Below are positions 47,672 through 63,773 of a stretch of 64,000 nt of DNA, piece after piece. The notes under the pieces were generated by a model. It saw only the letters and a program-made list of their open reading frames with translations, made no database searches and was not told the DNA's origin. The stretch's first letter is position 1; each line of letters begins with the position of its first letter. Both the position numbers and the translations under genes were made by a program. This DNA is from Gammaproteobacteria bacterium BRH_c0 (GTDB lineage: Bacteria; Pseudomonadota; Gammaproteobacteria; Pseudomonadales; Porticoccaceae): positions 1-64,000 of the forward strand of contig LADM01000069.1 of NCBI GenBank assembly GCA_000961645.1, in the 5' to 3' direction.

Positions 47672-48163
47672 ATGCCTAGCGGTCCATTTGCACACGTATG
47701 TATGGTGGTTAAAGATCTCGAAGTAGCCATCGAAGACTGGACAAAAATTCTCGGTGTACTCGATCCGGGCCAGCTCAAGGACCCCATCGTAAAATACGAC
47801 GAGTTCTCCAGCGGTGATGATGCCGGCATGAAATGGGCGACTTTTGTGTCCCACCACGGCACCGAAATCCAGTTTATCGAGCCTTCCCCCGGCACCCCTA
47901 TGGGCGACCGTCTGGAGCAGGTTGGCGAACACGTCCACCACCTGTGCTTCACCACCCCTGATGTTCCCGGCGCACTGGCCACCCTGTCTGCACAGGGCAT
48001 CAAACTGGCTGGCGGCGGCAAAACCTACAATGATCCCGACATGACCTGGCAGAAGTGGGGCTGGATTTCCCACAAGAGCACCCATGGTTGCCTGATCGAA
48101 GTGGCCTCTCCCTACGAGAGCCACAAGGACGGTAAATGGCACCCCGTTGAGGCCGAAGGCTAA
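47672..48163 (+). CDS. VOC-fold protein (glyoxalase/epimerase-like)
   Basis: A 163-residue vicinal-oxygen-chelate protein. Repeated beta-alpha-beta-beta-beta motifs start AHVCMVVKDLEVAIEDWTKILG and VHHLCFTTPDVPGALATLSAQGIKL (each split above 20 residues in the protein). Metal-site candidates are H in the first motif, E in TEIQFIEPSP, H in EHVHHLCF and E in GCLIEVASP; the pattern suggests a methylmalonyl-CoA-epimerase-like mononuclear metal enzyme. Substrate unknown. Confidence 0.75.
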   Translation: MPSGPFAHVCMVVKDLEVAIEDWTKILGVLDPGQLKDPIVKYDEFSSGDDAGMKWATFVSHHGTEIQFIEPSPGTPMGDRLEQVGEHVHHLCFTTPDVPGALATLSAQGIKLAGGGKTYNDPDMTWQKWGWISHKSTHGCLIEVASPYESHKDGKWHPVEAEG

Positions 48164-48217
48164 GCAAGTCTGGCCTCAACACTGACCGGTGATCTGCATG
48201 TACCGGGCGTTTACACT

Positions 48218-48250
48218 AAACCCCGCCTGGATCTCCAGGCGGGGTTTTTT
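48218..48250 (+). terminator. Terminator after the VOC gene
   Basis: A 13-bp stem AAACCCCGCCTGG with CCAGGCGGGGTTT, loop ATCT, followed by a T-run. It separates the hydratase/VOC transcript from the dienelactone-hydrolase-like gene. Confidence 0.92.
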
Positions 48251-48285
48251 AATCCTTCATAATACTGACCCGCAAGGACAGACTT

Positions 48286-49002
48286 ATGATCATCACAGAG
48301 CAGTATAACTACCAGGATGACAAAACCAATCTGATCGGCTATCTGGCCTATGACGACAGCCACGAGGCAAAGCGCCCCGCCGTCCTGATCGCACCGGAAG
48401 CACCGGGTATTGGCGAGCACGTCAAAAAGCGCGCCGCGATGTTTGCCAAAGCGGGGTTTATCGCTCTGGTGGCTGATATTTACGCTAACGGCAAATACTT
48501 TTCCGACATGGGTGACATGATGGCCCAGGTGGAAAAAACCCGCGGCAACCTGCAGGCCTGGCGCCAGCGCACAGGTGCGGCACTGGGGGCGCTGAAAGCG
48601 CATCCCATGACCGATGCAGACAGGGTATGCGCGGTGGGCTACTGCTTTGGTGGCTCGGGGGTGCTCGAACTGGCGCGCAGCGGCGCTGCCTTGCGTGGCA
48701 CAGTGTGCTTCCACGGCGAACTGACCCCTTCTGACCATGATCCGAGGGGAATTGGCAGCAAAATCCTGGTCCTCACCGGCGCGGCAGATCCGTTTATCCC
48801 TTTGCAGCAGCGCAATGACTTTGAAGCAGAAATGCAGGCTGCTGGCGCCCAATGGGAAATGATCGTCTACGGCAGCATCAAGCACGGTTTCACCAACCCC
48901 GAAGCGGACCTGTCTGGCATGCCCGCGATGGCTTACGATGCAGCAGTTGACCGGCGCTCCTGGCAGAGCATGATGAACTGGCTGGGGTATGTGCTGGCGT
49001 GA
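48286..49002 (+). CDS. Dienelactone hydrolase family protein
   Basis: A 238-residue alpha/beta hydrolase. The Cys nucleophile of the DLH type is in CAVGYCFGGSG, the Asp in VLTGAADPFIP and the His in IKHGFTNPEA, so the triad is complete. Dienelactone hydrolases open lactones from ring cleavage, but many relatives hydrolyse other esters. It is preceded by an AGGA ribosome site. Confidence 0.85.
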   Translation: MIITEQYNYQDDKTNLIGYLAYDDSHEAKRPAVLIAPEAPGIGEHVKKRAAMFAKAGFIALVADIYANGKYFSDMGDMMAQVEKTRGNLQAWRQRTGAALGALKAHPMTDADRVCAVGYCFGGSGVLELARSGAALRGTVCFHGELTPSDHDPRGIGSKILVLTGAADPFIPLQQRNDFEAEMQAAGAQWEMIVYGSIKHGFTNPEADLSGMPAMAYDAAVDRRSWQSMMNWLGYVLA

Positions 49003-49148
49003 CGGGTACTTATTGTGACCCTGGCTGCAGCTCTCCCGACATCATCACCCGACTTGGCGCCGACAACACATGCCTTGGGGACTTACGGCAATCATAATGG
49101 TTGCCCGTTCCCGACAGCACTTCCACTCTTAAACGGATCATTATTACT

Positions 49149-49637
49149 ATGTTTCCCAGGCTTTTTGGCAATTTTTTCCAGCATGGCTACGTCACCAGCG
49201 ATATGGCCGAAGCGAAGGCTGTCTTTGAAAAACAGTACGGCGTCAGCCAGTATCTCGATATCGACAATGCCCTGGAGGTTCACACACCTGCAGGCCTGCA
49301 GACCCTCGATCTGAAAATATCCCTGGCCTATGTGGACAACCTGCAGGTGGAGCTGATCCAGCCCGTCGGCGGTTCTGCAGCCGATCTCTACAGGCAGGTA
49401 TTGCCAGCAACAGGCTTTGCCATTGCCATCCACCACATGGGTTTCCTGATTGAAGGCCCTGAGGAAAACTGGCATGCGTTCCGCAGCCATATCGGTAACG
49501 AAAGCTACCCCATCGCCATCGAAGCCGAGGTCGGGCCGGTCAGGTTCGCCTACATAGATACACGCAAGACGACCGGACATTATTCCGAATACCTGTGGAT
49601 GTCCCAGGACGTCAACGCCATGGTGCCGCGCAACTGA
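49149..49637 (+). CDS. VOC-fold protein (second, glyoxalase_4-like)
   Basis: A 162-residue VOC-like protein: HGYVTSDMAEAKAVFEKQYG with its first-half metal His, LQVELIQPVGG with Glu, and a later block FAIAIHHMGFLIE with a candidate His, ending EYLWMSQDVNAM. Start at 49149 is taken because the domain begins there; an upstream frame lacks homology. Substrate unknown. Confidence 0.65.
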   Translation: MFPRLFGNFFQHGYVTSDMAEAKAVFEKQYGVSQYLDIDNALEVHTPAGLQTLDLKISLAYVDNLQVELIQPVGGSAADLYRQVLPATGFAIAIHHMGFLIEGPEENWHAFRSHIGNESYPIAIEAEVGPVRFAYIDTRKTTGHYSEYLWMSQDVNAMVPRN

Positions 49638-49710
49638 CCAACACGGCCAGCACGGACTGTCCAAGGCAAACTGTCCAGTCAAAATAACCAGACACAACAA
49701 GGTTACAGTG

Positions 49711-50163
49711 ATGAACGATAGTGAACTGCTGATTCGCATCAGGATTGAAGAGCTCAAGGCGCGCTATTGCCGCCTGATGGATACCAAGCAATGGGATGCC
49801 TGGGGGCAGCTGTTTAGCGAAGATTTGGTGATGGATGTCAGCGATGATGTTCCTGCCGATATCGGCACGCCAATCCAGCGGGGACGGGATGTTGTGGTGG
49901 CCCAGGTCCGCGGCTTTGTCGGCCAGGCGATCACCGTGCACCAGGTTCACTCCCCGGAAATTGAGGTGTTATCCACCACCAGTGCCAGTGGCATCTGGGC
50001 CATGTCCGATGTGGTGATCTGGCCTGAATGTGTTACCCCGCCGATTCCAGGCAAAGGCACTCTTTACGGTTACGGCCACTACCATGAAACCTACGCCTTG
50101 CAGGATGGCGCATGGCGCATCACTTCCCTCAAGCTGACGCGACTGCACAAGCACTTTGCCTGA
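49711..50163 (+). CDS. SnoaL/NTF2-like protein (SnoaL_4 type)
   Basis: A 150-residue protein with the NTF2-like opening IRIEELKARYCRLMDTKQWDAW, in part, and the late block ATYHETYALQDGAWRITSLKLTR, in part (GHYHETYALQDGAWRIT). Members of this group act as dehydratases or isomerases in polyketide, bile acid and terpenoid breakdown; others bind without chemistry. ATG at 49711 or GTG at 49708. It is the last plus-strand gene before the flavin monooxygenase. Confidence 0.7.
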   Translation: MNDSELLIRIRIEELKARYCRLMDTKQWDAWGQLFSEDLVMDVSDDVPADIGTPIQRGRDVVVAQVRGFVGQAITVHQVHSPEIEVLSTTSASGIWAMSDVVIWPECVTPPIPGKGTLYGYGHYHETYALQDGAWRITSLKLTRLHKHFA

Positions 50164-50240: not shown

Positions 50241-51443
50241 TCAGATAAAGTCAGGGGCGGAAATATTGGGTTCAACGCCCAGCAGCGACTTGCCAAAAAT
50301 TTCGTAGCCCACATAGGGCAGGTTGGCCGTGTGCCGGGCACCCACATTGAGATCTCGCCAGATACGGGAAACTGCCTTTTCATCGGAGAAAGCACCCGAG
50401 CCGGCAAGAAACATCAGATCGTGCCCGGCTTTGGCCAGCAGGTCGATGGTGAATGAACCCTCTCCCTTGCTCATTGCCCGCTCCTGAGGAGTCATCGGCA
50501 CCCGGGTAGCGCCGGACACATCAATCAGACCGCAGGATTTTTCCACCAGCAACCGCGCCGCCTCAACACTGGCGGCAATGCGGCCAAACTCCGCCTGTAC
50601 CACGGCTGATTCCGATTGCTTGGCATAGGTGGTATAGACGATGGGCCGGTTGTGGCTTGCCCTGGTAACCTCCTCGAACAGCGCCTGGGCAGCACCAATC
50701 ACCATGCCGTGGGCAGTGGCCCGCAGGAAAGGCATAAAGGGCCAGTAATCGGAGGGCTCACCCACATATTTTTTGCCGTCCGGGTGGTTGCCGATACCCT
50801 TGGTAAAATCCATAAAGCGGTTTTTCGGTACAAACACATCCTTCACCACGCAGGTTTCCGAGCCGGTACCTTTCATGCCCACCATGAACCAGGTGTCTTC
50901 GATCGCCATGTCGGCCATGGGGATGTAGATGTTGCCAAAGCCCACCTGCTCGTCCTTGTCGTTGAGCACCTTGACGGCAAAGCCACCCCATTCCGCATGA
51001 CGTGAACCGGAGCAGTAGGCCCACCTGCCATTGACGATATAACCACCTTCTACCAGCCTCGCAGTGCCTGGAGGCGTGGCGGCACCGCAGATTGTGGGGT
51101 GATGGCCATTGGCGAAAATCTCTTCCTGCAGTTCATCCGGGCCAAGGCTGGCAATCCAGGTGGTGCCGTGCAGCACGGTATACACCCAGCCTACCGAGGC
51201 ATCACCCTTGCCCAGTTCGGCACCCACCCGCGCCATGGCGCTGGCAGATGTGCCATAGCCGTCCCAGCGTCGGGGTGATGCCATTTTCCAGAACCCGGCA
51301 TCCGTCAGCTCGCGGAAGACATCAGCGCTGATGCGACGATTGGCATCGAACTCAGGCCCCTTGCTGCGCAGCAACGGCTGCAATTCACGGGCGCGACCAA
51401 TCAGCTCCTTTTCAGCGGCTAGGTTGTAATCAGTAAATTTCAT
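50241..51443 (-). CDS. Acyl-CoA-dehydrogenase-fold flavin monooxygenase (HsaA-like)
   Basis: A 400-residue flavoprotein of the group D (p-hydroxyphenylacetate 3-hydroxylase C2/HsaA) type: AAEKELIGRARELQPLLR, FRELTDAGFWKMASPRRWDGYG, SVGWVYTVLHGTTWIASLG (in part) and a C-terminal helical bundle. Such enzymes hydroxylate a phenol next to an existing hydroxyl, using reduced flavin from a separate reductase, and so make a catechol for ring cleavage. No reductase gene is seen in the window. Start at 51443 follows GGAG. Confidence 0.8.
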   Translation of the reverse strand: MKFTDYNLAAEKELIGRARELQPLLRSKGPEFDANRRISADVFRELTDAGFWKMASPRRWDGYGTSASAMARVGAELGKGDASVGWVYTVLHGTTWIASLGPDELQEEIFANGHHPTICGAATPPGTARLVEGGYIVNGRWAYCSGSRHAEWGGFAVKVLNDKDEQVGFGNIYIPMADMAIEDTWFMVGMKGTGSETCVVKDVFVPKNRFMDFTKGIGNHPDGKKYVGEPSDYWPFMPFLRATAHGMVIGAAQALFEEVTRASHNRPIVYTTYAKQSESAVVQAEFGRIAASVEAARLLVEKSCGLIDVSGATRVPMTPQERAMSKGEGSFTIDLLAKAGHDLMFLAGSGAFSDEKAVSRIWRDLNVGARHTANLPYVGYEIFGKSLLGVEPNISAPDFI

Positions 51444-52006: not shown

Positions 52007-53398
52007 ATGTTAAATAAATCTACCCCGACCCTCCGGGACGGTACCCGAATCGAAGACCTCTTCAATCTGGAAACCCGCGAGGTTTCCCTCTCCACCATGT
52101 ACGATCCGGAAATCCACCAGATCGAGATGGAAAAGATCTTTACCAAGGTCTGGCTGCTGCTTGGCCATGCGTCAGAAATCCCCAAATCCGGTGACTACGT
52201 TGTGCGTTATATGGGCCAGGACGAGGTTATCGTTTCGCGGGATCGCAAAGACGAAATCCATGTCAGCCTCAACGTCTGCCCCCACCGCGGCATGCATGTC
52301 TGCACCGCCGAGTCCGGCAACGCCCAGGTACACAAATGTATCTATCACGGCTGGGCATTTCGCCCCGATGGCAGCTTTGTCGGCGCGCCGCTGGAAAAGG
52401 AAAAAATGCATGGCGAAATCTACCCCAAGGAAAAACTCGGTCTTAAAAAGGCCCGGGTACAGCTTTTCCACGGTCTGATTTTTGCCACCTGGAACCAGGA
52501 AGCTGCACCCCTGGAAGATCAGCTCGGCGACATGAAGTTCTACTACGACATCATGTTTGGCAAAACCCATGGCGGCATGGAAGTGCTCGGTGCCCCCCAG
52601 CGCCTGACCATTCCCGCCAACTGGAAAACAGCCGGTGAACAGGCCGCCTGCGATGGTTTCCATACCCTCACCCTGCACCGCTCGCAGTTTGATATTGGCA
52701 ACTTCGGCAATATCAGCGACACCATGGATGAGTTCATTCCCATCATGCAGGGCGTCAACGTGGCACAAAAAGGCAATGCCCTGCGCTGTATCTCTGCCGC
52801 TACCACCTTCACGTCACTGATCGGTTCCGGCGAGGATTTCAGCAAGCTGTCTGACCTGGAAAAGATTACCAAGCTGCCACCGCCCGGCATCGTCACCGAG
52901 CAGTTGCTGGCGGAAATGAAAGAGCGGCTCAGCCCTGAACAAATCCACGTCTGCTCCGTAGCGCCGCCCCAGGTCGGCAATATGTTCCCCAATGTGAATC
53001 TGCTGTTTATCTATGCACCGCTGCCGGATGGCACCCTTGGCTCGGGCTATGTAATCCACACCATCAACCCCATGGGGGCCGACAAATTCCAGTGGATCAC
53101 CTGGTTCCTGTGTGAAAAGGATACCCCTGAGGAGATCAAGGACATTATCCGCGCCGTGGCGGTACAGACCGGCGGCACGTCGGGACTGATCGAACAGGAC
53201 GACTCCGATACCTGGCCTCACATGACCATTGCCGCCAAGGGCGCCTGGGGGCGCACCGAAACCCTCAAATACCAGGCTATTGGCGGCGAGAACCGCCCTG
53301 AGGGCTGGCCCGACAAGGCCCACGTTTATGCAGGCCTGTCGAAGGACGATGCCCAGTGGCACTGGTGGCTGCAATACCACGAGCTGATGACCCAGTAA
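52007..53398 (+). CDS. Aromatic-ring-hydroxylating dioxygenase, alpha subunit
   Basis: A 463-residue Rieske oxygenase large subunit. Rieske ligands are C91 and H93 (CPHRG) and C111 and H114 (CIYHGW); the mononuclear iron ligands are H219 and H224 in CDGFHTLTLH. The length and a following beta subunit gene mark the alpha3beta3 dioxygenase type, which makes cis-dihydrodiols from aromatic rings. Start at 52007 follows GAGGAATCAG; a longer frame upstream crosses the palindrome region and is not used. Confidence 0.92.
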   Translation: MLNKSTPTLRDGTRIEDLFNLETREVSLSTMYDPEIHQIEMEKIFTKVWLLLGHASEIPKSGDYVVRYMGQDEVIVSRDRKDEIHVSLNVCPHRGMHVCTAESGNAQVHKCIYHGWAFRPDGSFVGAPLEKEKMHGEIYPKEKLGLKKARVQLFHGLIFATWNQEAAPLEDQLGDMKFYYDIMFGKTHGGMEVLGAPQRLTIPANWKTAGEQAACDGFHTLTLHRSQFDIGNFGNISDTMDEFIPIMQGVNVAQKGNALRCISAATTFTSLIGSGEDFSKLSDLEKITKLPPPGIVTEQLLAEMKERLSPEQIHVCSVAPPQVGNMFPNVNLLFIYAPLPDGTLGSGYVIHTINPMGADKFQWITWFLCEKDTPEEIKDIIRAVAVQTGGTSGLIEQDDSDTWPHMTIAAKGAWGRTETLKYQAIGGENRPEGWPDKAHVYAGLSKDDAQWHWWLQYHELMTQ

Positions 53399-53444: not shown

Positions 53445-54014
53445 ATGAACAATACCGCCGAAAAAGTCGCACCGTTCGAGATTCCGCCCATCAACCTGCC
53501 CAAACCGACGGACTCGATTACCCACTACCAGATCCAGCAGTTCCTGCACCTGGATGCCTATCTGCTGGATCACAACATGCTGGCGGAGTGGCTGAATATC
53601 CTCGCCCCGGACCTGCGCTACTTTGTCCCCATTCGTCAGACACGGGAACGCAAGGACCGCGACAAGGAATTTTCCACCAAGCTCGGCCATATGGACGATA
53701 ACTTCCAGTCCATCGCCATGCGGGTTCACCGCCTGGTGAACACTGGTACCGCCTGGTCCGAAGATCCGGCGTCGCGGGTGCGCCGCTTTGTCACCAATGT
53801 GTCGGTATGGGAAACCGATGTACTGGGTGAATACGATGTCACCAGCTACCTGTTGCTAACACGCAACCGTTTTTACCAGGACGATTATCACCTGCTCAGC
53901 GCCGAACGGATCGACCGGATCCGTCGCAAAGGGGAAAGTTTCGAACTGGTAAGCCGCGAGGTGAGGATGGACCAGAGTGTACTGGGAATGCCCAATCTGG
54001 CGATCTTCCTGTAA
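53445..54014 (+). CDS. Aromatic-ring-hydroxylating dioxygenase, beta subunit
   Basis: A 189-residue NTF2-fold small subunit with the family pattern: FLHLDAYLLDHNMLAEWLNI, LRYFVPIRQTRERKD, then VRRFVTNVSVWET and YLLLTRNRFYQDD. It completes the dioxygenase with the alpha gene 47 bases upstream. No ferredoxin or reductase follows; the ferredoxin at 60.2 kb is a candidate partner. Confidence 0.9.
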   Translation: MNNTAEKVAPFEIPPINLPKPTDSITHYQIQQFLHLDAYLLDHNMLAEWLNILAPDLRYFVPIRQTRERKDRDKEFSTKLGHMDDNFQSIAMRVHRLVNTGTAWSEDPASRVRRFVTNVSVWETDVLGEYDVTSYLLLTRNRFYQDDYHLLSAERIDRIRRKGESFELVSREVRMDQSVLGMPNLAIFL

Positions 54015-54020
54015 CAGCAC

Positions 54021-54056
54021 GCACGGCTGCCGATCTTCCGAGATCGGCAGCCGTGC
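54021..54056 (+). other. Perfect 16-bp intercistronic hairpin
   Basis: GCACGGCTGCCGATCT pairs exactly with AGATCGGCAGCCGTGC around a TCCG loop. There is no T-run, and the P450 gene begins 27 bases later, so it is not a simple terminator. It may set mRNA stability or dosage between the dioxygenase and P450 genes. Confidence 0.85.
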
Positions 54057-54082
54057 AGTGATCATTCACTGAGGAATATAAA

Positions 54083-55306
54083 ATGACCGTACATAACAGC
54101 CAACCCGGCAAGATTCCCGATCACATCCCCAAGCACCTTATTCAGGATTTTCCGCTGAAAATGGGCGTTTATGCCGATGAAAACCCGTTTGATCGCATAG
54201 TCCCCGAGGTGTGTGAAGGGCCGGATGTGATCTATGCCCTCGATGTTTTGCCCGGCGGTCGCGGTGACGCGTGGATTTTCCGCCGCCAGGAGGATAACCG
54301 CGAGATTTACAACGATACCGAACATTTTTCCAACAAGGGCTTCAGCGGTTTTGCCGAGCTGATCGGCGAGCACTGGTCAACCATTCCTGCCGAAACCGAC
54401 GCACCGGAGCACACCTATTTTCGCACCCTGCTCAACCCGGTGTTTGCACCCGGCTCCATGGCGAAAATGGAAGGCACAGTACGCGATGCAGCACTGCGGA
54501 CCCTGAAGCGGCTTGAGGGCAAAAAAGAATGTGACTTCATGGATGATTTCGCCTTTCCCTTTCCTGTCGGTGTAGTCCTCGATCTGATGGGGCTGCCCCA
54601 TGAACGGATGGACGAGTTTTTAACCTGGGAGCGGATGCTGCTGCACTCCGGCAAGGCCGAGGTAATGGCCGACGGTGTGCGCAAGGTCACCGGCTACCTG
54701 CGCGAAGTGATCGCCGAGCGCAAGCAAAATCCCGGTGACGACCTGATCAGCTTTGCCATCAAGTCTGATGTCAACGGCCGCAAAATGACCGATGACGAAC
54801 TGCTGGGTTACGCTTTTAATTTTTATATTGGCGGGCTGGATACTGTGTCTGCCAATCTTGGCAATTTTTTCCTGCACCTGGCCACCAACCTCGATCACCA
54901 GCGGGAGCTGCGGCAGCACCCGGAAAAAATCCGCGAAGCCATTGAGGAATTCCTGCGGGTCTTTGCTGCAGTCAGTACCACCCGCATCTGCATCAAGGAA
55001 AAAACCATCCGCGGCATTACCGTCAAGCCCGGCGACAAGGTGCAGATGAACACCACTGTGGCGAATCGGGACAAGCACGTCTACGAAAACCCCCATGAGG
55101 TGATCCTTGACCGCAATCCGTCCCATGTCACCTTTGCCACAGGCCCTCACCACTGCCTGGGCGTACATCTGGCGCGTCGCGAACTGCGCATCGCCATGGA
55201 AGAGTTCTTCAAGGCCATCCCGGAGTTCCGGCTCAAACCCGGCGCCAAGGTCAGCTGCCAGATCGGTGGCATTATCCAGCCGCGCACTCTGCCTATCGTC
55301 TGGTAA
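54083..55306 (+). CDS. Cytochrome P450 (bacterial, ferredoxin-dependent type)
   Basis: A 407-residue heme monooxygenase. The I-helix oxygen-binding block is GGLDTVSANLG, the ExxR motif lies in EEFLRVF, and the heme cysteine is C358 in FATGPHHCLGVHLARREL. No reductase domain is fused, so it takes electrons from a ferredoxin and ferredoxin reductase; the [3Fe-4S]-type ferredoxin at 60.2 kb is the best local candidate. It shares a transcript direction with the dioxygenase genes. Confidence 0.94.
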   Translation: MTVHNSQPGKIPDHIPKHLIQDFPLKMGVYADENPFDRIVPEVCEGPDVIYALDVLPGGRGDAWIFRRQEDNREIYNDTEHFSNKGFSGFAELIGEHWSTIPAETDAPEHTYFRTLLNPVFAPGSMAKMEGTVRDAALRTLKRLEGKKECDFMDDFAFPFPVGVVLDLMGLPHERMDEFLTWERMLLHSGKAEVMADGVRKVTGYLREVIAERKQNPGDDLISFAIKSDVNGRKMTDDELLGYAFNFYIGGLDTVSANLGNFFLHLATNLDHQRELRQHPEKIREAIEEFLRVFAAVSTTRICIKEKTIRGITVKPGDKVQMNTTVANRDKHVYENPHEVILDRNPSHVTFATGPHHCLGVHLARRELRIAMEEFFKAIPEFRLKPGAKVSCQIGGIIQPRTLPIVW

Positions 55307-55334
55307 CTAGCTTGGTAACTGCAGTCTGGTAACT
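55301..55334. repeat. Three direct copies of TGGTAACT
   Basis: The octamer occurs at 55301-55308, 55313-55320 and 55327-55334. The first copy includes the P450 stop codon TAA, and the others lie just downstream, as if short duplications had copied the gene end. Confidence 0.7.
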
Positions 55335-55397
55335 GCTCCCGGCCACACTGCTTGCAGCGGCGTGGCCGGGACTATGGGCATCACCCGGGACAGCAAG

Positions 55398-55814
55398 ATG
55401 ATTGATAAAGCGCTGATAGAAAATTCATTCGAGCAGGCTGCCGAAACACTGGGCGATATCACGCCACTGGTGTACGAGCAGTTTTTTGCGCAATTCCCCG
55501 AAGCTGAAGAACTGTTCAATATCAAGGGGCCCCAGTTCAACGCTGACCTGAAAAACAAGATGGTGAGCGACGCGCTCTATACTTTCATGGAATATCTCGA
55601 CACACCGGAGGAGGTGGAAATTGTTTTCAAGTACACCATTCCCCAGCATGTGGACCTGAATATTCCCATGAAGTATTTCACCGGGTTGCTCAGTGCTGTT
55701 GCGCAGGTAGTTTGCGATACGACTCCCGATCAGGACAAAGCCGCCACCAGTGCAAGCTGGAGCGCACTGCTGGCGAAGTTTGATGCACTGGTGGTGAAAT
55801 ACTCAACTGAATGA
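55398..55814 (+). CDS. Single-domain globin
   Basis: A 138-residue protein with the bacterial globin order: ENSFEQAAETLGDITPLVYEQFF and FPEAEELFN for helices A-C, then a proximal-histidine block IPQHVDLNIPMKYFTGLLSAVAQVV, in part, and SWSALLAKFDALV for helix H. The histidine-to-tyrosine spacing (9) resembles that of Vitreoscilla-type globins (10). A start at 55398 is used; an in-frame ATG at 55374 would add eight residues. It lies directly after the P450 and could supply or sense oxygen for the oxygenases. Not confirmed by alignment. Confidence 0.72.
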   Translation: MIDKALIENSFEQAAETLGDITPLVYEQFFAQFPEAEELFNIKGPQFNADLKNKMVSDALYTFMEYLDTPEEVEIVFKYTIPQHVDLNIPMKYFTGLLSAVAQVVCDTTPDQDKAATSASWSALLAKFDALVVKYSTE

Positions 55815-55997: not shown

Positions 55998-56762
55998 TTA
56001 AAGCGTCATCCCACCATCCAGCGGGATAACAGCCCCGGTGATAAAACTCCCAGCCCGGGAAGCAAGGTGAATCACCGAACCGACAATATCGTCCTCCTTA
56101 CCCAGGCGTCGCCGCGGCACCAGCTGCAAAATGGCTGGCAGCTGTTCGTCGGGGATCTGCGTTAACCTGGAAGGAAAAAATCCGGGCGCAATGGCGTTGA
56201 CCGTAATATTTTCGCCGCCCAACCGCTTGCCCAGTGAACCAGTCAAGTGATGCAAACCTGCCTTTGCCGCCTGGTAGGAGTAATTCTCCTTGGGACCGAC
56301 CCGGGTGCCACCCATGGAGCCAATATTCACAACGGCAGAAGGGTAGTCCGCAGTGGCACCGGCCCGCAGCAAGGGCAGCAGTGACTGGGTCAGAAAAAAG
56401 ACCGACTTCAGATTCAGGTCAACCACATCATCCCAGCCCTGCTCGGTGAACTCCCCCAGTGGCGCGTCATACATGGCGCCGGCGTTGTTGACCAGGATAT
56501 GCAGCATGCTCTCACGCTCACCCAGGGCTGAAGCCACAGCCTCCACACCCGGCATGGAGGAGAGATCTCCTGCCAAGGGCAAGCACTGGCCAAATGCCGA
56601 CAGTTCCGTCGCGATAGCGCTACAGGTATCAGGGTTACGCCCGACGATATAGGTTTTGGCCCCGTGTTCCACCAGGCCCTTGGCAATCATGTAACCGATA
56701 CCGCTGGTGCCGCCGGTCACCAGGGCGACACGGCCCCGCACTGAAAAAAGTTCACTCACCAT
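55998..56762 (-). CDS. Short-chain dehydrogenase/reductase (1)
   Basis: A 254-residue SDR. The cofactor motif is TGGTSGIGY near the start; NNAGAM is present, the catalytic Ser is in VNIGSMGG, and the pair Tyr-Lys is in SYQAAKAGLHH. Substrate unknown; oxidation of a dihydrodiol or a hydroxyacyl group fits the island. It is separated from the next SDR by a terminator. Confidence 0.92.
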   Translation of the reverse strand: MVSELFSVRGRVALVTGGTSGIGYMIAKGLVEHGAKTYIVGRNPDTCSAIATELSAFGQCLPLAGDLSSMPGVEAVASALGERESMLHILVNNAGAMYDAPLGEFTEQGWDDVVDLNLKSVFFLTQSLLPLLRAGATADYPSAVVNIGSMGGTRVGPKENYSYQAAKAGLHHLTGSLGKRLGGENITVNAIAPGFFPSRLTQIPDEQLPAILQLVPRRRLGKEDDIVGSVIHLASRAGSFITGAVIPLDGGMTL

Positions 56763-56796
56763 GGTTTCCTCTTATGGTTATGGCTTTTGCCGCTAC

Positions 56797-56827
56797 AAAA
56801 AAGCCAGCCGGAGAACATCGGGCTGGC
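56797..56827 (-). terminator. Terminator between the two SDR genes
   Basis: On the minus strand, GCCAGCC pairs with GGCTGGC around an 11-base loop, followed by TTTTTT. SDR 1 therefore needs its own promoter. Confidence 0.82.
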
Positions 56828-56853
56828 CGTGGAATTACAGTCATTCAATGGTG

Positions 56854-57639
56854 TCAGTGACAGCCAAACATGCCGCCATCAATGATGTGCTCGCCACCGG
56901 TGATATAGGCGCCTGCACGGGAGCTGAGGAAGATGCACAGGCCGACAATATCCTCAGCAGTGCCATAACGGGCCAGCGGTACACGGGCGAGGAATTCCTG
57001 GGAGGTGTCTTCCTCCTTGCGGATATGGGCGGTCATCTTGGTGGGGAAATAACCCGGCACCACCGCATTAACGGTGATATTGTCCGGCGCCAGCTCCGCC
57101 GCCAGCACCCGTGACAGATGGTGAATGGCCGCCTTGCTGGCCACATAGGAATAGGCTGGCAGCGGCTCCACAGCCTTGCCCGCCAGGGAGCCGATATTGA
57201 TCACCCGTGCAGGGTTGTCGCTGTTATCGGCTCCGGAATTTTTCAGCAGGGGGAGCAACTCTCGGATCAGGGTAAATGGCCCCTGCACATTCACCGCCAT
57301 CACCGGCGCCCAGGCCTTGTCGGGGAACGATTCAAGCGGCGCACCCCAGGTGCGCCCGGCGTTGTTGATGAGGATGTCGAGCTTATCCTCCAGCGCCTTG
57401 ATTTTATTGGCCAGCTCCACCACCGCTTCGGGCGGATCGAGATCCGCTGCAATGCCGATACAGGTACCAATCCTGCTCATCTCGGCGGCGGCGGCTTCAC
57501 AATCCGCAGGCTTGCGCGAAGTGATATAGACTTTCGCCCCTGCCTGCAGCAATCCTTCGGCGATCATGCGGCCCATGCCGGATGCGCCACCGGTAACCAG
57601 CGCCACTTTACCGCTGATATCAAATAATCCCGTGCTCAT
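56854..57639 (-). CDS. Short-chain dehydrogenase/reductase (2)
   Basis: A 261-residue SDR with TGGASGMGR, NNAGRTWGAP, INIGSLAG and SYVASKAAIHHLSR. It resembles SDR 1 in layout but is not a tandem copy. A strong GAGGAG ribosome site precedes its start, and the ADH gene lies 23 bases upstream, so it is co-transcribed with that gene. Confidence 0.92.
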   Translation of the reverse strand: MSTGLFDISGKVALVTGGASGMGRMIAEGLLQAGAKVYITSRKPADCEAAAAEMSRIGTCIGIAADLDPPEAVVELANKIKALEDKLDILINNAGRTWGAPLESFPDKAWAPVMAVNVQGPFTLIRELLPLLKNSGADNSDNPARVINIGSLAGKAVEPLPAYSYVASKAAIHHLSRVLAAELAPDNITVNAVVPGYFPTKMTAHIRKEEDTSQEFLARVPLARYGTAEDIVGLCIFLSSRAGAYITGGEHIIDGGMFGCH

Positions 57640-57661
57640 GATGTCTCCTCGAATCCACTAC

Positions 57662-58663
57662 TCAAATATTAACAACGATCTTGCCCATACCGTGGTCATT
57701 CTGCAAATACAGCAGGGCGTCCACGGCCTGGTCGAGATTGAACTGGCTGTCGATCACCGGCTTGATATTGCGCTCCGCCACAAAGGCCATCATGGCGCGG
57801 AAATCGTCCAGCGTGCCCATGGCGGAGCCGTGGATGGTGGCGTGGCGGAAGAACAGCTCCGGAGCCACCACCTGGAACTTGGCGCCACCGGTGGGGCCGT
57901 AGATAACCACCCGGGCACCCATATTCAAACAGCGGCTGTATTCGGCAAAGGATACGGCGGGCGCCCCATCAATCACCACATCGACGCTGCCAGCAAGCGC
58001 CGCGAGGGACTTGCCCCACTTCTCCTGCTTGTATACCACGCCGCCCTTCGCACCCAGAGCCACAGCCTGGTCAATTTTGTCCTGCGCGCCACTGGTGACG
58101 TAGACCTCAGCGCCCATGGCGACGGCAAAGATCAGGGCCTGGATAGCAACGCCACCACCGATGCCGGTGATCAGCACCTTCTCTCCGGCCTTGAGATTAC
58201 CCTTGGTGGTCAGGCAGCGCCAGGCAGTCAGGCCTGCCAGGGGAATCGCAGCTGCCTCTGCAAAGGTCAGCCCGGCGGGTTTTGCCACCACCGCATCGGC
58301 AGGCACGCAAATATATTCCGCCAGGGTGCCGGGATAGGGCATCCCCAGACAGCCAAATTCCGGGCTTGGGTAGTCGGGATTGTCACCCCAGTTGGCGGCG
58401 GGATAAAGCACAACCTCCCGACCAACCATGTCGGCATCAACGCCCTCGCCCACCGCATCCACCACACCGGCACCATCAGCCCCAAGAATGGCAGGCAACT
58501 GCATGCCGGGGTACTGCCCCAGGCTGACCCACAGCTCGCGGTGGTTGAGTGCCGCCGCCTTGAGCGCGACGCGCACCTCCCCTGCGGCCGGGACAGGGGT
58601 ATCCCTCTCTGTCACCGTGGCGCTTTGTGGCCCTTGCGGGGCGGTCAGAACCAGTGCTTTCAT
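57662..58663 (-). CDS. Medium-chain zinc-type alcohol dehydrogenase / quinone oxidoreductase
   Basis: A 333-residue MDR-family protein. The GroES-like N-domain has VALKAAALNHRELWVSLGQYPGMQLPAILGADGAGVV (seen as AALNHRELW and ILGADGAGVV). The cofactor loop is ITGIGGGVAIQAL. The zinc-ligand pattern of true ADHs (GHE) is not obvious, so it may be a zinc-free quinone-oxidoreductase type. Start at 58663 follows TGAGG. Confidence 0.85.
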   Translation of the reverse strand: MKALVLTAPQGPQSATVTERDTPVPAAGEVRVALKAAALNHRELWVSLGQYPGMQLPAILGADGAGVVDAVGEGVDADMVGREVVLYPAANWGDNPDYPSPEFGCLGMPYPGTLAEYICVPADAVVAKPAGLTFAEAAAIPLAGLTAWRCLTTKGNLKAGEKVLITGIGGGVAIQALIFAVAMGAEVYVTSGAQDKIDQAVALGAKGGVVYKQEKWGKSLAALAGSVDVVIDGAPAVSFAEYSRCLNMGARVVIYGPTGGAKFQVVAPELFFRHATIHGSAMGTLDDFRAMMAFVAERNIKPVIDSQFNLDQAVDALLYLQNDHGMGKIVVNI

Positions 58664-58706
58664 CCACTACCTCAGTTGTCTCTGTCATGTCGAAAAGGCA
58701 GACATA

Positions 58707-58741
58707 AAACAGCGGGGCTTGTTGCCAAACCCCGCTGTTTG
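58707..58741 (-). terminator. Terminator after the acyl-CoA dehydrogenase gene
   Basis: A perfect 11-bp stem AAACAGCGGGG with CCCCGCTGTTT around a 12-base loop, followed by a short T-run on the minus strand. The gene upstream is therefore probably monocistronic. Confidence 0.85.
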
Positions 58742-58769
58742 AACCGCCAGCTGGCCGATCAGATCAGGA

Positions 58770-59933
58770 TCAGAAAGAACGCGGCATACCCAGCATCTCA
58801 GCAATGGCGTTGCGGCACATTTCGTTGGTGATCGGCCCTATGCGCCACAGGCGGCTGTCGCGCCAGTAACGCTGCATATCGGTTTCTGCCGAGTAACCCA
58901 TCCCGCCCAGAATCTGTATGCCGAGATCGGCAGCCCTGTTGGCGTATTCGGAGGCCTGCAACTTTAACATAGTCGACTCCATATGGCAGGGCTTGCCGCT
59001 AGTCATCAACCAGGCGCAGTGGTTCATCATCAGCTCGATGGAATAACGCCAGGAGGCAATATCCGCCAGGTAATGCTGGAGAGCCTGGAAATGGCCGATG
59101 GTTTTACCAAAGGCCTTGCGCTGGTTCATATACTCGATGGCGTCCTCCTGAATACCATCCATCACCCCGAGGCAGAAAGCTGCCACCATCAGGCGCTCGT
59201 TATTGAGGGTCGGCAACAGGGTGTACCAGGCATTGTGAGGCTCGGCAAGCACCTGTTCATCGGTGACCAGGACATTCTCAAAATGCACCGTGCAGGAACC
59301 CATGGAACGCATACCCAGCTTGGGCAGCGGGGTGATGGTGATGCCGGGCTGTTTGGCCGGCACCCAGAACAGACTGACCCCTTGATGACGCTTTTCCACA
59401 TCCTTCTTAGTACGGGCCAGCACCAGCAGGTAATCCGCCACATGGGCAGAAGAACTCCAGATCTTCTCGCCATTGAGAATCCAGCCGCCATCGCCACGTA
59501 CACCCTCAGTGCGCAGGGCACCGAGCACATCGGTACCGCCATCCGGCTCGGTAAAGGCAATCGCTGCCCGCAGCTGGCCCGTGGCAATCTTCGGCAGGAA
59601 TTCTTTCTTTTGCGCATCCGTACCATAGACGCCAATGGATTTTGACCCGGCAAAGGAGGTAATACCCCAGATCCAGGCAAGACCGCCCAGAGGCCGGGCG
59701 AGTTCACGGGCAAGAATCATCTGGGTGATAACGTCGCCACCCTGACCGTCATAGTCTTCAGAAATGCCGATACCGTGAAATCCTGCCTCTGTGAACTTGT
59801 CCCATAGCTCGAAAGGATAATCGTGTTCTTTCGCCTCCAGTTCGCGGGCCCAGCTTTTGGGAAGCTCCTTGCTCACCCATTTACGGGTGAAGTCCTGAAA
59901 CGCGACATATTCTTCCTGCATTTGAAAATCCAT
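58770..59933 (-). CDS. Acyl-CoA dehydrogenase
   Basis: A 387-residue flavoprotein with the family blocks AFTEPDGGTDVLGALRTEGV and WSSSAHVADYLLVLARTKK and, near the end, QILGGMGYSAETDMQRYWRDSRLWRIG. A glutamate base is expected in the loop before the C-terminal helices but is not clear by eye. It oxidises an acyl-CoA to the 2-enoyl-CoA, which the MaoC pair could hydrate. It has a good ribosome site (GGAGAG). Confidence 0.9.
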   Translation of the reverse strand: MDFQMQEEYVAFQDFTRKWVSKELPKSWARELEAKEHDYPFELWDKFTEAGFHGIGISEDYDGQGGDVITQMILARELARPLGGLAWIWGITSFAGSKSIGVYGTDAQKKEFLPKIATGQLRAAIAFTEPDGGTDVLGALRTEGVRGDGGWILNGEKIWSSSAHVADYLLVLARTKKDVEKRHQGVSLFWVPAKQPGITITPLPKLGMRSMGSCTVHFENVLVTDEQVLAEPHNAWYTLLPTLNNERLMVAAFCLGVMDGIQEDAIEYMNQRKAFGKTIGHFQALQHYLADIASWRYSIELMMNHCAWLMTSGKPCHMESTMLKLQASEYANRAADLGIQILGGMGYSAETDMQRYWRDSRLWRIGPITNEMCRNAIAEMLGMPRSF

Positions 59934-61916: not shown

Positions 61917-62855
61917 TCAGGCCTGCTCAAGGTTATCGGTAAACCCGGCGGGGACATCCGGGCCCCACAGGTAGAAGGAGTCTTCCGGGCCAAGATCGGA
62001 ATCTTTCCAGTCGACATTGGCAGGAATGTAGTCCATACCGGCAGAATACTCAGTCCAGCTACCCCAGGGATCGCGCACATAGTGGAAGTAGTTGGAACCC
62101 AGTACATGACGCCCCAGACCCCAGCTGTAGTCAAAGCCATTGAGCGCCATGTGGTTGGCGCCAACGCCCACTTCATTGACGGAGCTCACTTCCCAGCTGG
62201 TGTGGTGCAGACCGGGCCCAGTGCCACCCAACAGGGCGATGGTGTGGTGATCACTGCCATGGGGCGCATGCATGAAGGCAACGATATGCAATGAACGGTC
62301 CGACAGGCGCAGGCCGAGCACATCCCGGTAGAAGTTGATGCCGTCATCAAGATCGCCGGTAAACATTGCCAGGTGGGACAACCTGCGAGGACGGGTTCGC
62401 TCGCACTCACTGCGCAAGGGGGCAGCGCGTTTGTCGCTGGAGCCACCATTGGCATCGAACGGCGCCAGTTCATTGTTGGCGGTACGGGCGGCGATGCGAA
62501 TTTCCAGAGGCAGGCCCATGGGGTCGGCAAAACGCACTGACTGGTCATCGCCTTCGAAGCTCACACCCTGCTTGTCGAGATGCTCCTTGAAACGCGGGAG
62601 GTCGTCCGCAAAGCAGCCAAAGCACAGGCCGGCGAGCTTTTTCGGTGTGCCCTGCCTGATAATTCCCCAGCGCTGGGAGCCGCCGTAGCAATACAGTCCC
62701 AGGGTTGCACCTTCTTCCTTAACCTCGAGACCGAACAGGTCGAAGTACTTTTTGGCTTCGGCCAGATCCGGGACATCCATCACGAAATGATCCAGTGAAT
62801 GAACGCCCAGAACGCCCTGACGGCGGATTTCCTGCTGGTTACTTGCTTGGGTCAT
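61917..62855 (-). CDS. Extradiol ring-cleavage dioxygenase (two-domain VOC type)
   Basis: A 312-residue enzyme with duplicated VOC modules, as in BphC/HsaC. Predicted iron(II) ligands are H161 (LSHLAMF), H217 (or H218, LHHTSWEV) and E269 (WTEYSAG). The C-terminal signature FHYVRDPWGSWTEY is present. It cleaves a catechol next to the hydroxyls; the N-terminal module lacks the ligand set, as expected. It lies 58 bases downstream of the fumarylacetoacetase-family gene and shares its transcript. Confidence 0.85.
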   Translation of the reverse strand: MTQASNQQEIRRQGVLGVHSLDHFVMDVPDLAEAKKYFDLFGLEVKEEGATLGLYCYGGSQRWGIIRQGTPKKLAGLCFGCFADDLPRFKEHLDKQGVSFEGDDQSVRFADPMGLPLEIRIAARTANNELAPFDANGGSSDKRAAPLRSECERTRPRRLSHLAMFTGDLDDGINFYRDVLGLRLSDRSLHIVAFMHAPHGSDHHTIALLGGTGPGLHHTSWEVSSVNEVGVGANHMALNGFDYSWGLGRHVLGSNYFHYVRDPWGSWTEYSAGMDYIPANVDWKDSDLGPEDSFYLWGPDVPAGFTDNLEQA

Positions 62856-62912
62856 AGCTGACTCCTCCCGATGTATTGGTTATGTTCGTGCAATCCTGAG
62901 GCTGCGGAGTGC

Positions 62913-63773
62913 TTACTCCTCGTCTTCAATACCGTTGCTGAGCAAGCCGAGGCCTTCGATCTCAACTTCACAGATATCGCCCGGCTTCATGTACAGCGGC
63001 GGCTTGTGGAAGTGGCCGACGCCGGATGGAGTACCCATCACCAGCACATCACCGGCTTCGAGGGTAATGGCCTGGCTCATCAGGTGAATCACGTTGGCAA
63101 CGTCAAAAATCAGCTGGTCGGTATTGGAGGACTGCACTACCTGACCGTTGAGGCGGGTCTCAATTTTGAGGCCGCTGGCGCCCGGTGGCACTTCGTCCGG
63201 GGTGACCAGCTCGGGGCCGAAGGCACCGGTGCCGTCAAAGGTCTTGCCCACTGTCCACTGGCTGGTGCGAATCTGGTAGTCGCGCACGGAGCCATCGTTA
63301 AACACGGAATAGCCAGCAACATAATCCAGCGCATCGGCGAGGGGAATATGGCGGCCACCCTTGCCCAGCACAGCAACCAACTCACCTTCGTAATCGAGCT
63401 GATGAGAGATGCGGGGGCGAACGATATTGGCCTTGTGGCCGATCAGGCTGGTGTTGAAGCGGGTGAAGATGGTTGGGTAGTCAGGCAGGTCGAGCCCGGC
63501 TTCCTTGGCGTGGTCCTTGTAGTTCAGGCCCAGGCAGAAGATTTTGGTGGGGTTGCTCAGGGGTGGCAGCACCTCAACCTGGTCGATATCGACGGCATTG
63601 CCCTTGGCCAGGATGTCGCCCGCTTTGGCCAGAGCCGCTGAACCCTGGCGCACCAGGCTGTCGAGGCTGCCGGGGTAGCCGGCATCGGTTTCGACCAGTC
63701 CAGCAAAGGTGCCATTTTGGCCCTTGACCGCCAAACCCTGTTTACCGTCTTTTTTGAATGATAGAAAACGCAT
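62913..63773 (-). CDS. Fumarylacetoacetate hydrolase family protein
   Basis: A 286-residue FAH-superfamily protein with IFCLGLNYKDHAKEAG, the acidic metal ligands in DYEGELVAVLGKGG and a late VMGTPSGVGHFHKPP loop. Relatives hydrolyse or decarboxylate acylpyruvate-like products of meta-cleavage (for example 2-hydroxyhepta-2,4-dienedioate isomerase/decarboxylase). Being upstream of the extradiol gene, it probably works on the ring-cleavage product. Its leader carries a long hairpin. Confidence 0.88.
   Translation of the reverse strand: MRFLSFKKDGKQGLAVKGQNGTFAGLVETDAGYPGSLDSLVRQGSAALAKAGDILAKGNAVDIDQVEVLPPLSNPTKIFCLGLNYKDHAKEAGLDLPDYPTIFTRFNTSLIGHKANIVRPRISHQLDYEGELVAVLGKGGRHIPLADALDYVAGYSVFNDGSVRDYQIRTSQWTVGKTFDGTGAFGPELVTPDEVPPGASGLKIETRLNGQVVQSSNTDQLIFDVANVIHLMSQAITLEAGDVLVMGTPSGVGHFHKPPLYMKPGDICEVEIEGLGLLSNGIEDEE

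Follow-up and report, generated by a model that had tools for sequence, protein, structure and literature searches.

Globins have not, to our knowledge, been established as natural suppliers of O2 to oxygenases, and a search of the open-licence literature by titles and the beginnings of abstracts gave no description of a P450 or Rieske operon with a native globin. The nearest precedent is an engineered one: Vitreoscilla hemoglobin (VHb), a single globin domain like the protein described here, has been paired by engineering with DNT dioxygenase, an enzyme of aromatic breakdown to which it is proposed to supply O2, and in vitro the activity of that dioxygenase rose 2.7-fold with the purified hemoglobin (PMC3962134, in the portion of the article available to us). 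In the window, by which we mean the whole stretch of 64,000 nucleotides analysed, a single-domain globin gene lies natively beside oxygenase genes, whereas VHb was brought to DNT dioxygenase by engineering. The two proteins also differ at position E7, which is Gln in VHb (same portion of PMC3962134) and Lys52 in the window globin. Regarding direct similarity, VHb was absent from the 14 sequence matches of the window globin up to an E value of 10, as well as from the best 50 fold matches of its model, the latter absence excluding nothing. It appeared only among the fold matches of the model of a related group (clade C, see below), with a TM of 0.57.

Three other described systems are relevant. 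The globin domain of flavohemoglobin (3ozu/1cqx) aligns with the window globin at the proximal His, the B10 Tyr, the CD1 Phe and the G5 Tyr; in contrast to it, the window globin has no FAD/NAD reductase domain, carries Lys instead of Gln at E7 and belongs to a catabolic oxygenase cluster. PA3967 of Pseudomonas aeruginosa (1tu9) is likewise a bacterial, single-domain globin of similar length (VIA Z 12.7, rmsd 2.7, 129 residues aligned), yet shares only 15% identity with the window protein. Finally, the window P450 is closest in the PDB to P450cam (CYP101); unlike in P450cam systems, its gene is followed by a globin gene, and the only PF00111 2Fe-2S ferredoxin match of the contig (6701-6919), a possible redox partner, lies about 47 kb away.

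The gene cluster around the globin

The initial annotation had placed a globin directly after a P450 and a ring-hydroxylating dioxygenase. The order is indeed dioxygenase alpha, dioxygenase beta, P450 and globin, all on the + strand and separated by 46, 68 and 91 bp, and the gene downstream of the globin is convergent. The features of the region are as follows.

47672..50163, +, upstream cluster genes (Pfam), order kept in the related genome G069, comprising the next four entries
47672-48163, +, VOC protein (Pfam)
48286-49002, +, dienelactone-hydrolase family protein (Pfam)
49101-49637, +, VOC-like protein (under the Pfam cut-off)
49708-50163, +, SnoaL-like protein (Pfam)
50241..51443, -, HsaA-like flavin monooxygenase oxygenase component (NF045629, 197.5 bits, below the 450 cut-off), in divergent orientation to the dioxygenase pair
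52007..53398, +, Rieske ring-hydroxylating dioxygenase alpha (PF00355, 57.9 bits; PF00848, 32.3 bits; probable start at ATG 52007)
53445..54014, +, ring-hydroxylating dioxygenase beta (PF00866, 104.6 bits; NF007479, 159.2 bits, cut-off 145)
54021..54056, +, hairpin in the beta-P450 gap (stem of 16 bp, not followed by a T run)
54083..55306, +, cytochrome P450, P450cam (CYP101)-like, 407 aa (PF00067, 90.2 bits)
55337..55371, +, hairpin in the P450-globin gap (stem of 10 bp with a further 5 bp inside, no T run; weaker evidence)
55398..55814, +, single-domain globin, 138 aa, ATG to TGA, exact ORF
55998..59933, -, two SDRs, a zinc-type dehydrogenase/reductase and an acyl-CoA dehydrogenase (Pfam), downstream and convergent
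61917..63773, -, extradiol-type dioxygenase and FAA hydrolase (PF00903, PF01557), as in meta-cleavage pathways

The alpha subunit is of the naphthalene/biphenyl dioxygenase type and matches the large subunit of naphthalene dioxygenase in the PDB (E 2.5e-73), while the best PDB matches of the P450 are camphor 5-monooxygenase/P450cam (E 1.6e-62). In an NCBIfam scan of the cluster proteins, the beta subunit alone reached a curated cut-off, that of a subfamily model; the extradiol-type dioxygenase (HpaD-like) and the FAA hydrolase (HpaG-like) were both under theirs. Two luciferase-like monooxygenase genes are also present in the cluster, and the first SDR, the second SDR and the zinc-type gene are kept in order in G069. 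Judged from these predicted functions, the cluster probably encodes the breakdown of an aromatic or other ring compound.

Both hairpins lie at the borders of the P450 gene. The fold of 54015-54090 reaches -38.9 kcal/mol, with a z of -7.0 and none of 200 shuffles reaching it; that of 55300-55412 has a z of -1.83, and 10 of 200 shuffles do as well. They may separate transcripts. Since hairpins occur at both P450 borders and neither has a T run, a single transcript spanning the two dioxygenase genes, the P450 and the globin is possible. It is also observed that the gene bracketed by the two hairpins is the one missing from the G069 locus.

Identity and heme pocket of the globin

The 138-aa protein matches the Pfam Globin profile (PF00042) at 29.7 bits, above the cut-off of 22 (E 9.6e-7), and a profile built from 18 relatives retrieves flavohemoglobin globin domains from the PDB with an E of 1.6e-10, 3ozu/1cqx being the best sequence relative. 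The AlphaFold (AF2) model built with those relatives has seven helices, a pLDDT of 94.9 and a pTM of 0.89, and presents a globin fold over its full length, as expected from the initial annotation, which had proposed structure prediction as a check. Its best Foldseek match in the PDB has an E of 6.8e-3 and a probability of 1.00, and structure comparison with VIA gives full-length globin matches with Z up to 14.2 (rmsd 2.7, 135 residues aligned). Nearly all PDB fold matches are globins; phycobilisome proteins, which have a globin-like fold, are also present. With a best Foldseek E of only 6.8e-3 and phycobilisome proteins among the matches, the fold alone is therefore insufficient proof of heme binding.

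The residues of the pocket add to this picture. The apparent proximal histidine noted in the initial annotation corresponds to His84 (F8), which is invariant in all 18 rows of alignment A2 (the relatives described below) and aligns with His85 of the solved flavohemoglobin; Asp20, Pro34 and Met55 are also invariant in these 18 rows. Phe40 at CD1 is invariant in the five rows of alignment A1, but not across all 18 rows of A2. Tyr26 (B10) and Tyr93 (G5) align with Tyr29 and Tyr95 of flavohemoglobin, and both tyrosines occur in the three oxygenase-linked orthologues (3/3) and are absent from the two paralogues. At E7, in a part of the mapping that passes near an alignment gap, Lys is found in the window (Lys52) and in G069 and Glu in G005, not Gln. 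The residues are named here by the helix positions B10, CD1, E7, F8 and G5 that we take them to occupy. This naming is partly backed by the available portion of PMC3962134.

The gene comprises one globin domain and no reductase domain, as the stop codon closes the 138-aa ORF and the next gene is on the opposite strand. An alternative in-frame GTG start at 55362 would lengthen the ORF; the ATG, which fits the orthologue alignment, is favoured. Between the window and G069, dN is 0.30 against a saturated dS (>2), which indicates purifying selection on the gene. Profile, fold, orthologues and dN/dS together rule out a chance reading frame. That the protein is a globin is thus close to certain, and profile, fold and conserved residues make it kin to the flavohemoglobin globin domain, as a single-domain globin that probably binds heme. 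Two further properties deserve mention: its GC content is 0.494 versus 0.56 for the neighbouring genes, and the sensor-type domain RsbR-N gives a weak match (E 0.095, 13.3 bits, far under the 27-bit cut-off).

Conservation of the neighbourhood in relatives

Among 112 genomes of the Porticoccaceae, globin orthologues (E <= 1e-10) occur in three, namely the window genome, G069 from the same genus and G005 from another, in line with the earlier suggestion that it would be uncommon for such an operon to include a native globin; the other 109 gave no globin match (70 of the 112 are >=90% complete). Comparison of the gene order in these relatives, a check named in the initial annotation, lends further support: each of the three orthologues adjoins an oxygenase gene, in two arrangements: the P450 at 91 bp in the window, the dioxygenase beta gene at 122 bp in G069 and a P450 at about 760 bp in G005. 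In G069 the globin follows dioxygenase alpha and beta directly, the P450 being absent at the locus, and of 19 window genes compared, 14 have counterparts in the same order. Among the five without one, the P450 and the acyl-CoA dehydrogenase leave gaps within an otherwise conserved order, a luciferase-like gene is lacking at the far end, and the remaining two fall beyond the G069 stretch compared, which ends with its contig. Between the window and G069, the globins are 63.7% identical and the dioxygenase subunits 82 and 88%. In G005 the order is P450-P450-TetR-globin, and the dioxygenase orthologue (78%) is on a different contig, without a globin.

The P450 of the window falls together with both G005 P450s in one supported subclade of six P450s (99/99), the other three of which have no globin alongside in the flanks seen. 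The globin carriers are the three genomes of the family with 10 to 12 close P450 homologues; elsewhere in the family, at the threshold used, four genomes have one each and the rest none. Two histories fit these data: a single ancestral unit with later loss of the P450 in G069 and a split in G005, or repeated joining.

How far chance could produce this linkage depends on the density of oxygenase genes. The globin-carrying genomes have from at least 21 to 25 P450 matches and 14 to 23 Rieske matches each, and the chance that a random point lies <=1.5 kb from one of these genes is at most 0.043-0.059 per genome. Of the three orthologue arrangements two are independent, which gives about 0.003, for a neighbourhood that had been spotted before being counted. 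The figure is suggestive rather than overwhelming; with only two independent arrangements and genomes so dense in oxygenases, chance linkage is not remote. For its 3.5 Mb, the window genome itself (G000) seems rich in both, with at least 21 P450 matches and 18 Rieske matches. The idea that the globin is part of P450 systems generally was rejected: of the two globin-homologue loci in this genome, with its ~21 P450 matches, only one adjoins a P450.

Farther afield, a search with the single protein in 369 genomes of the class matched only the window genome, and profile searches, window genome included, found matches in 13/390 genomes of the order, 4/369 of the class and 19/398 of the phylum. The order search returned 16 matches, one of which, L054 (G666), is a full flavohemoglobin and was left out of A2, whose 18 rows are the 15 other order matches plus three sequences from relatives (two from G069, one from G005). 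L052 (G565), on a long branch, is in A2 but outside all clades and is excluded from clade counts. With Pfam Globin at E 0.1, eight of the 18 rows match and 10 do not. The tree resolves clade A, the three orthologues (91/94), clade B, with the paralogues (87/90), and clade C (97/98).

In clade B, two of six globins are beside an oxygenase and four are not, among the matches listed and by ORF comparison: G643 has a Rieske alpha gene directly upstream of the globin with a flavin monooxygenase-like gene next, and G702 has the order P450-VOC-globin. These oxygenase-linked loci are L059:333-4128 and L060:7384-12578. Clade C (L047-L051, L053, L056, L057) consists of eight proteins of the same order with a GDPT...HHxxIGVP-like pattern, and the model of this clade (pLDDT 92.5) has globin fold matches. 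In the stretches seen, none of the eight has a P450 or Rieske gene as neighbour, the lack of a nearby P450 here and for the paralogues being judged from the P450 matches listed and ORF comparisons; three contigs (G643:C41, G643:C19, G806:C89) end 1-3 kb from the globin. Neighbours in clade C are an acyl-CoA ligase and an FAD flavoprotein for L048, an SDR and an FAD flavoprotein for L049, and, by eye, ligase-like genes for L047 and L056; some genes of the clade are near acyl-CoA ligase and KstD-like flavoprotein genes. Phylum-wide, 14 of the 18 matches outside the window genome were read with 1.5-kb flanks and showed no neighbour like the window P450 or Rieske proteins. For L076, L079, L080, L082, L084, L085 and L089, greedy gene picking gave no globin ORF and the contexts are rough. 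At class level, the matches L072-L074 are parts of long ORFs, and two of these adjoin chemotaxis-like genes by eye. With two of six in clade B, none of eight in clade C and none in the phylum loci read, the oxygenase link therefore characterises clade A, and clade B contributes two outliers. The single-domain globin is new, and its setting is unusual and partly conserved.

Possible roles of the globin

The leading proposal, which we would place somewhat short of probable, is that the globin acts as a local O2 supply or buffer for the oxygenases of the cluster. It would be made together with the P450cam-like P450 and the Rieske dioxygenase, would bind heme and O2 in the cytosol and would hold or pass O2 near these enzymes; oxygenation could thereby continue at low cellular O2 or under simultaneous demand from several oxygenases. 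The observations underneath are the globin fold, the conserved proximal His, the recurrent gene neighbourhood and purifying selection, and the O2-supply reading itself is drawn from this neighbourhood and from the engineered pairing of VHb with DNT dioxygenase. Conservation of the neighbourhood suggests that the globin serves these O2-consuming enzymes: it stays at the G069 locus without the P450, it stays with P450s in G005, and the cluster also has the extradiol-type dioxygenase, two luciferase-like monooxygenases and the HsaA-like oxygenase. Against O2 supply, one of at least 21 P450 loci in the genome has such a globin, the paralogues and related clades are mostly away from P450 and Rieske genes among the matches listed, and the globin diverges faster than the dioxygenase, has a lower GC content and may be in a separate transcript, given the hairpins at the P450 borders. 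The initial annotation had invoked Vitreoscilla-type globins feeding O2 to oxygenases, which is plausible; the "Vitreoscilla-type" label fits only loosely, the tyrosines at B10 and G5 agreeing with it and Lys at E7, not Gln, departing from it.

The main rival to O2 supply is protection, in which the globin, served by a cellular reductase, would clear NO or peroxide harmful to the iron of the Rieske and P450 enzymes, or peroxide released by uncoupled oxygenases. The closest kinship of the protein is with flavohemoglobin globin domains, and the tyrosines at B10 and G5, which all three oxygenase-linked orthologues keep and both paralogues lack, point the same way. There is also precedent for single-domain globins that can remove NO with separate reductases (PMC3820574, in the portion available). 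Such a function nevertheless has to reckon with the missing reductase domain, with annotated neighbours among which neither a flavin-NAD reductase nor an NO-response regulator was recognised, and with the replacement of the E7 Gln by Lys or Glu; it also leaves the oxygenase link without a specific explanation. We regard protection as rather unlikely.

The globin could otherwise be of a widespread single-domain type with a general role, present here by chance in an oxygenase-dense genome. The chance of about 5% per locus within 1.5 kb, the faster divergence and lower GC content relative to the neighbours, and the phylum relatives (19/398 genomes), without P450- or Rieske-like neighbours in the 14 loci read, are what such a bystander would show. 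It is harder to reconcile with three of three orthologues standing beside oxygenases in two arrangements, with a cluster position kept in G069 despite the absence of the P450, and with the lack of a match in the 109 other family genomes (70 of the 112 being >=90% complete). This explanation is, in our judgement, unlikely. The least likely of the readings, and an improbable one, is that the globin regulates the cluster by sensing O2 or redox state, or stores heme for the P450: the TetR-type gene between P450 and globin in G005 and the weak RsbR-N match (E 0.095) speak for it, while the protein has no output domain, the G069 locus has no P450 to receive heme and the RsbR-N score is 13.3 bits against a 27-bit cut-off.

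Returning to O2 supply, the stronger form of this reading, a native module in which a dedicated globin is genetically coupled to P450 and Rieske oxygenases in this Porticoccaceae lineage and kept through rearrangement of the cluster, appears doubtful. If it were true, the module would do naturally what engineers achieve by adding Vitreoscilla hemoglobin. A native globin retained beside oxygenases despite rearrangement is also a small testable system, with one globin, one P450 and one dioxygenase, and if O2 supply works, such globins could be paired as matched partners with oxygenase biocatalysts where O2 is low.

Finally, a CRISPR-like array with a 67-base period is present on the same contig outside the window (L011:17878-18571), and two of its adjacent spacers resemble, by eye, mutual reverse complements over ~31 bases.
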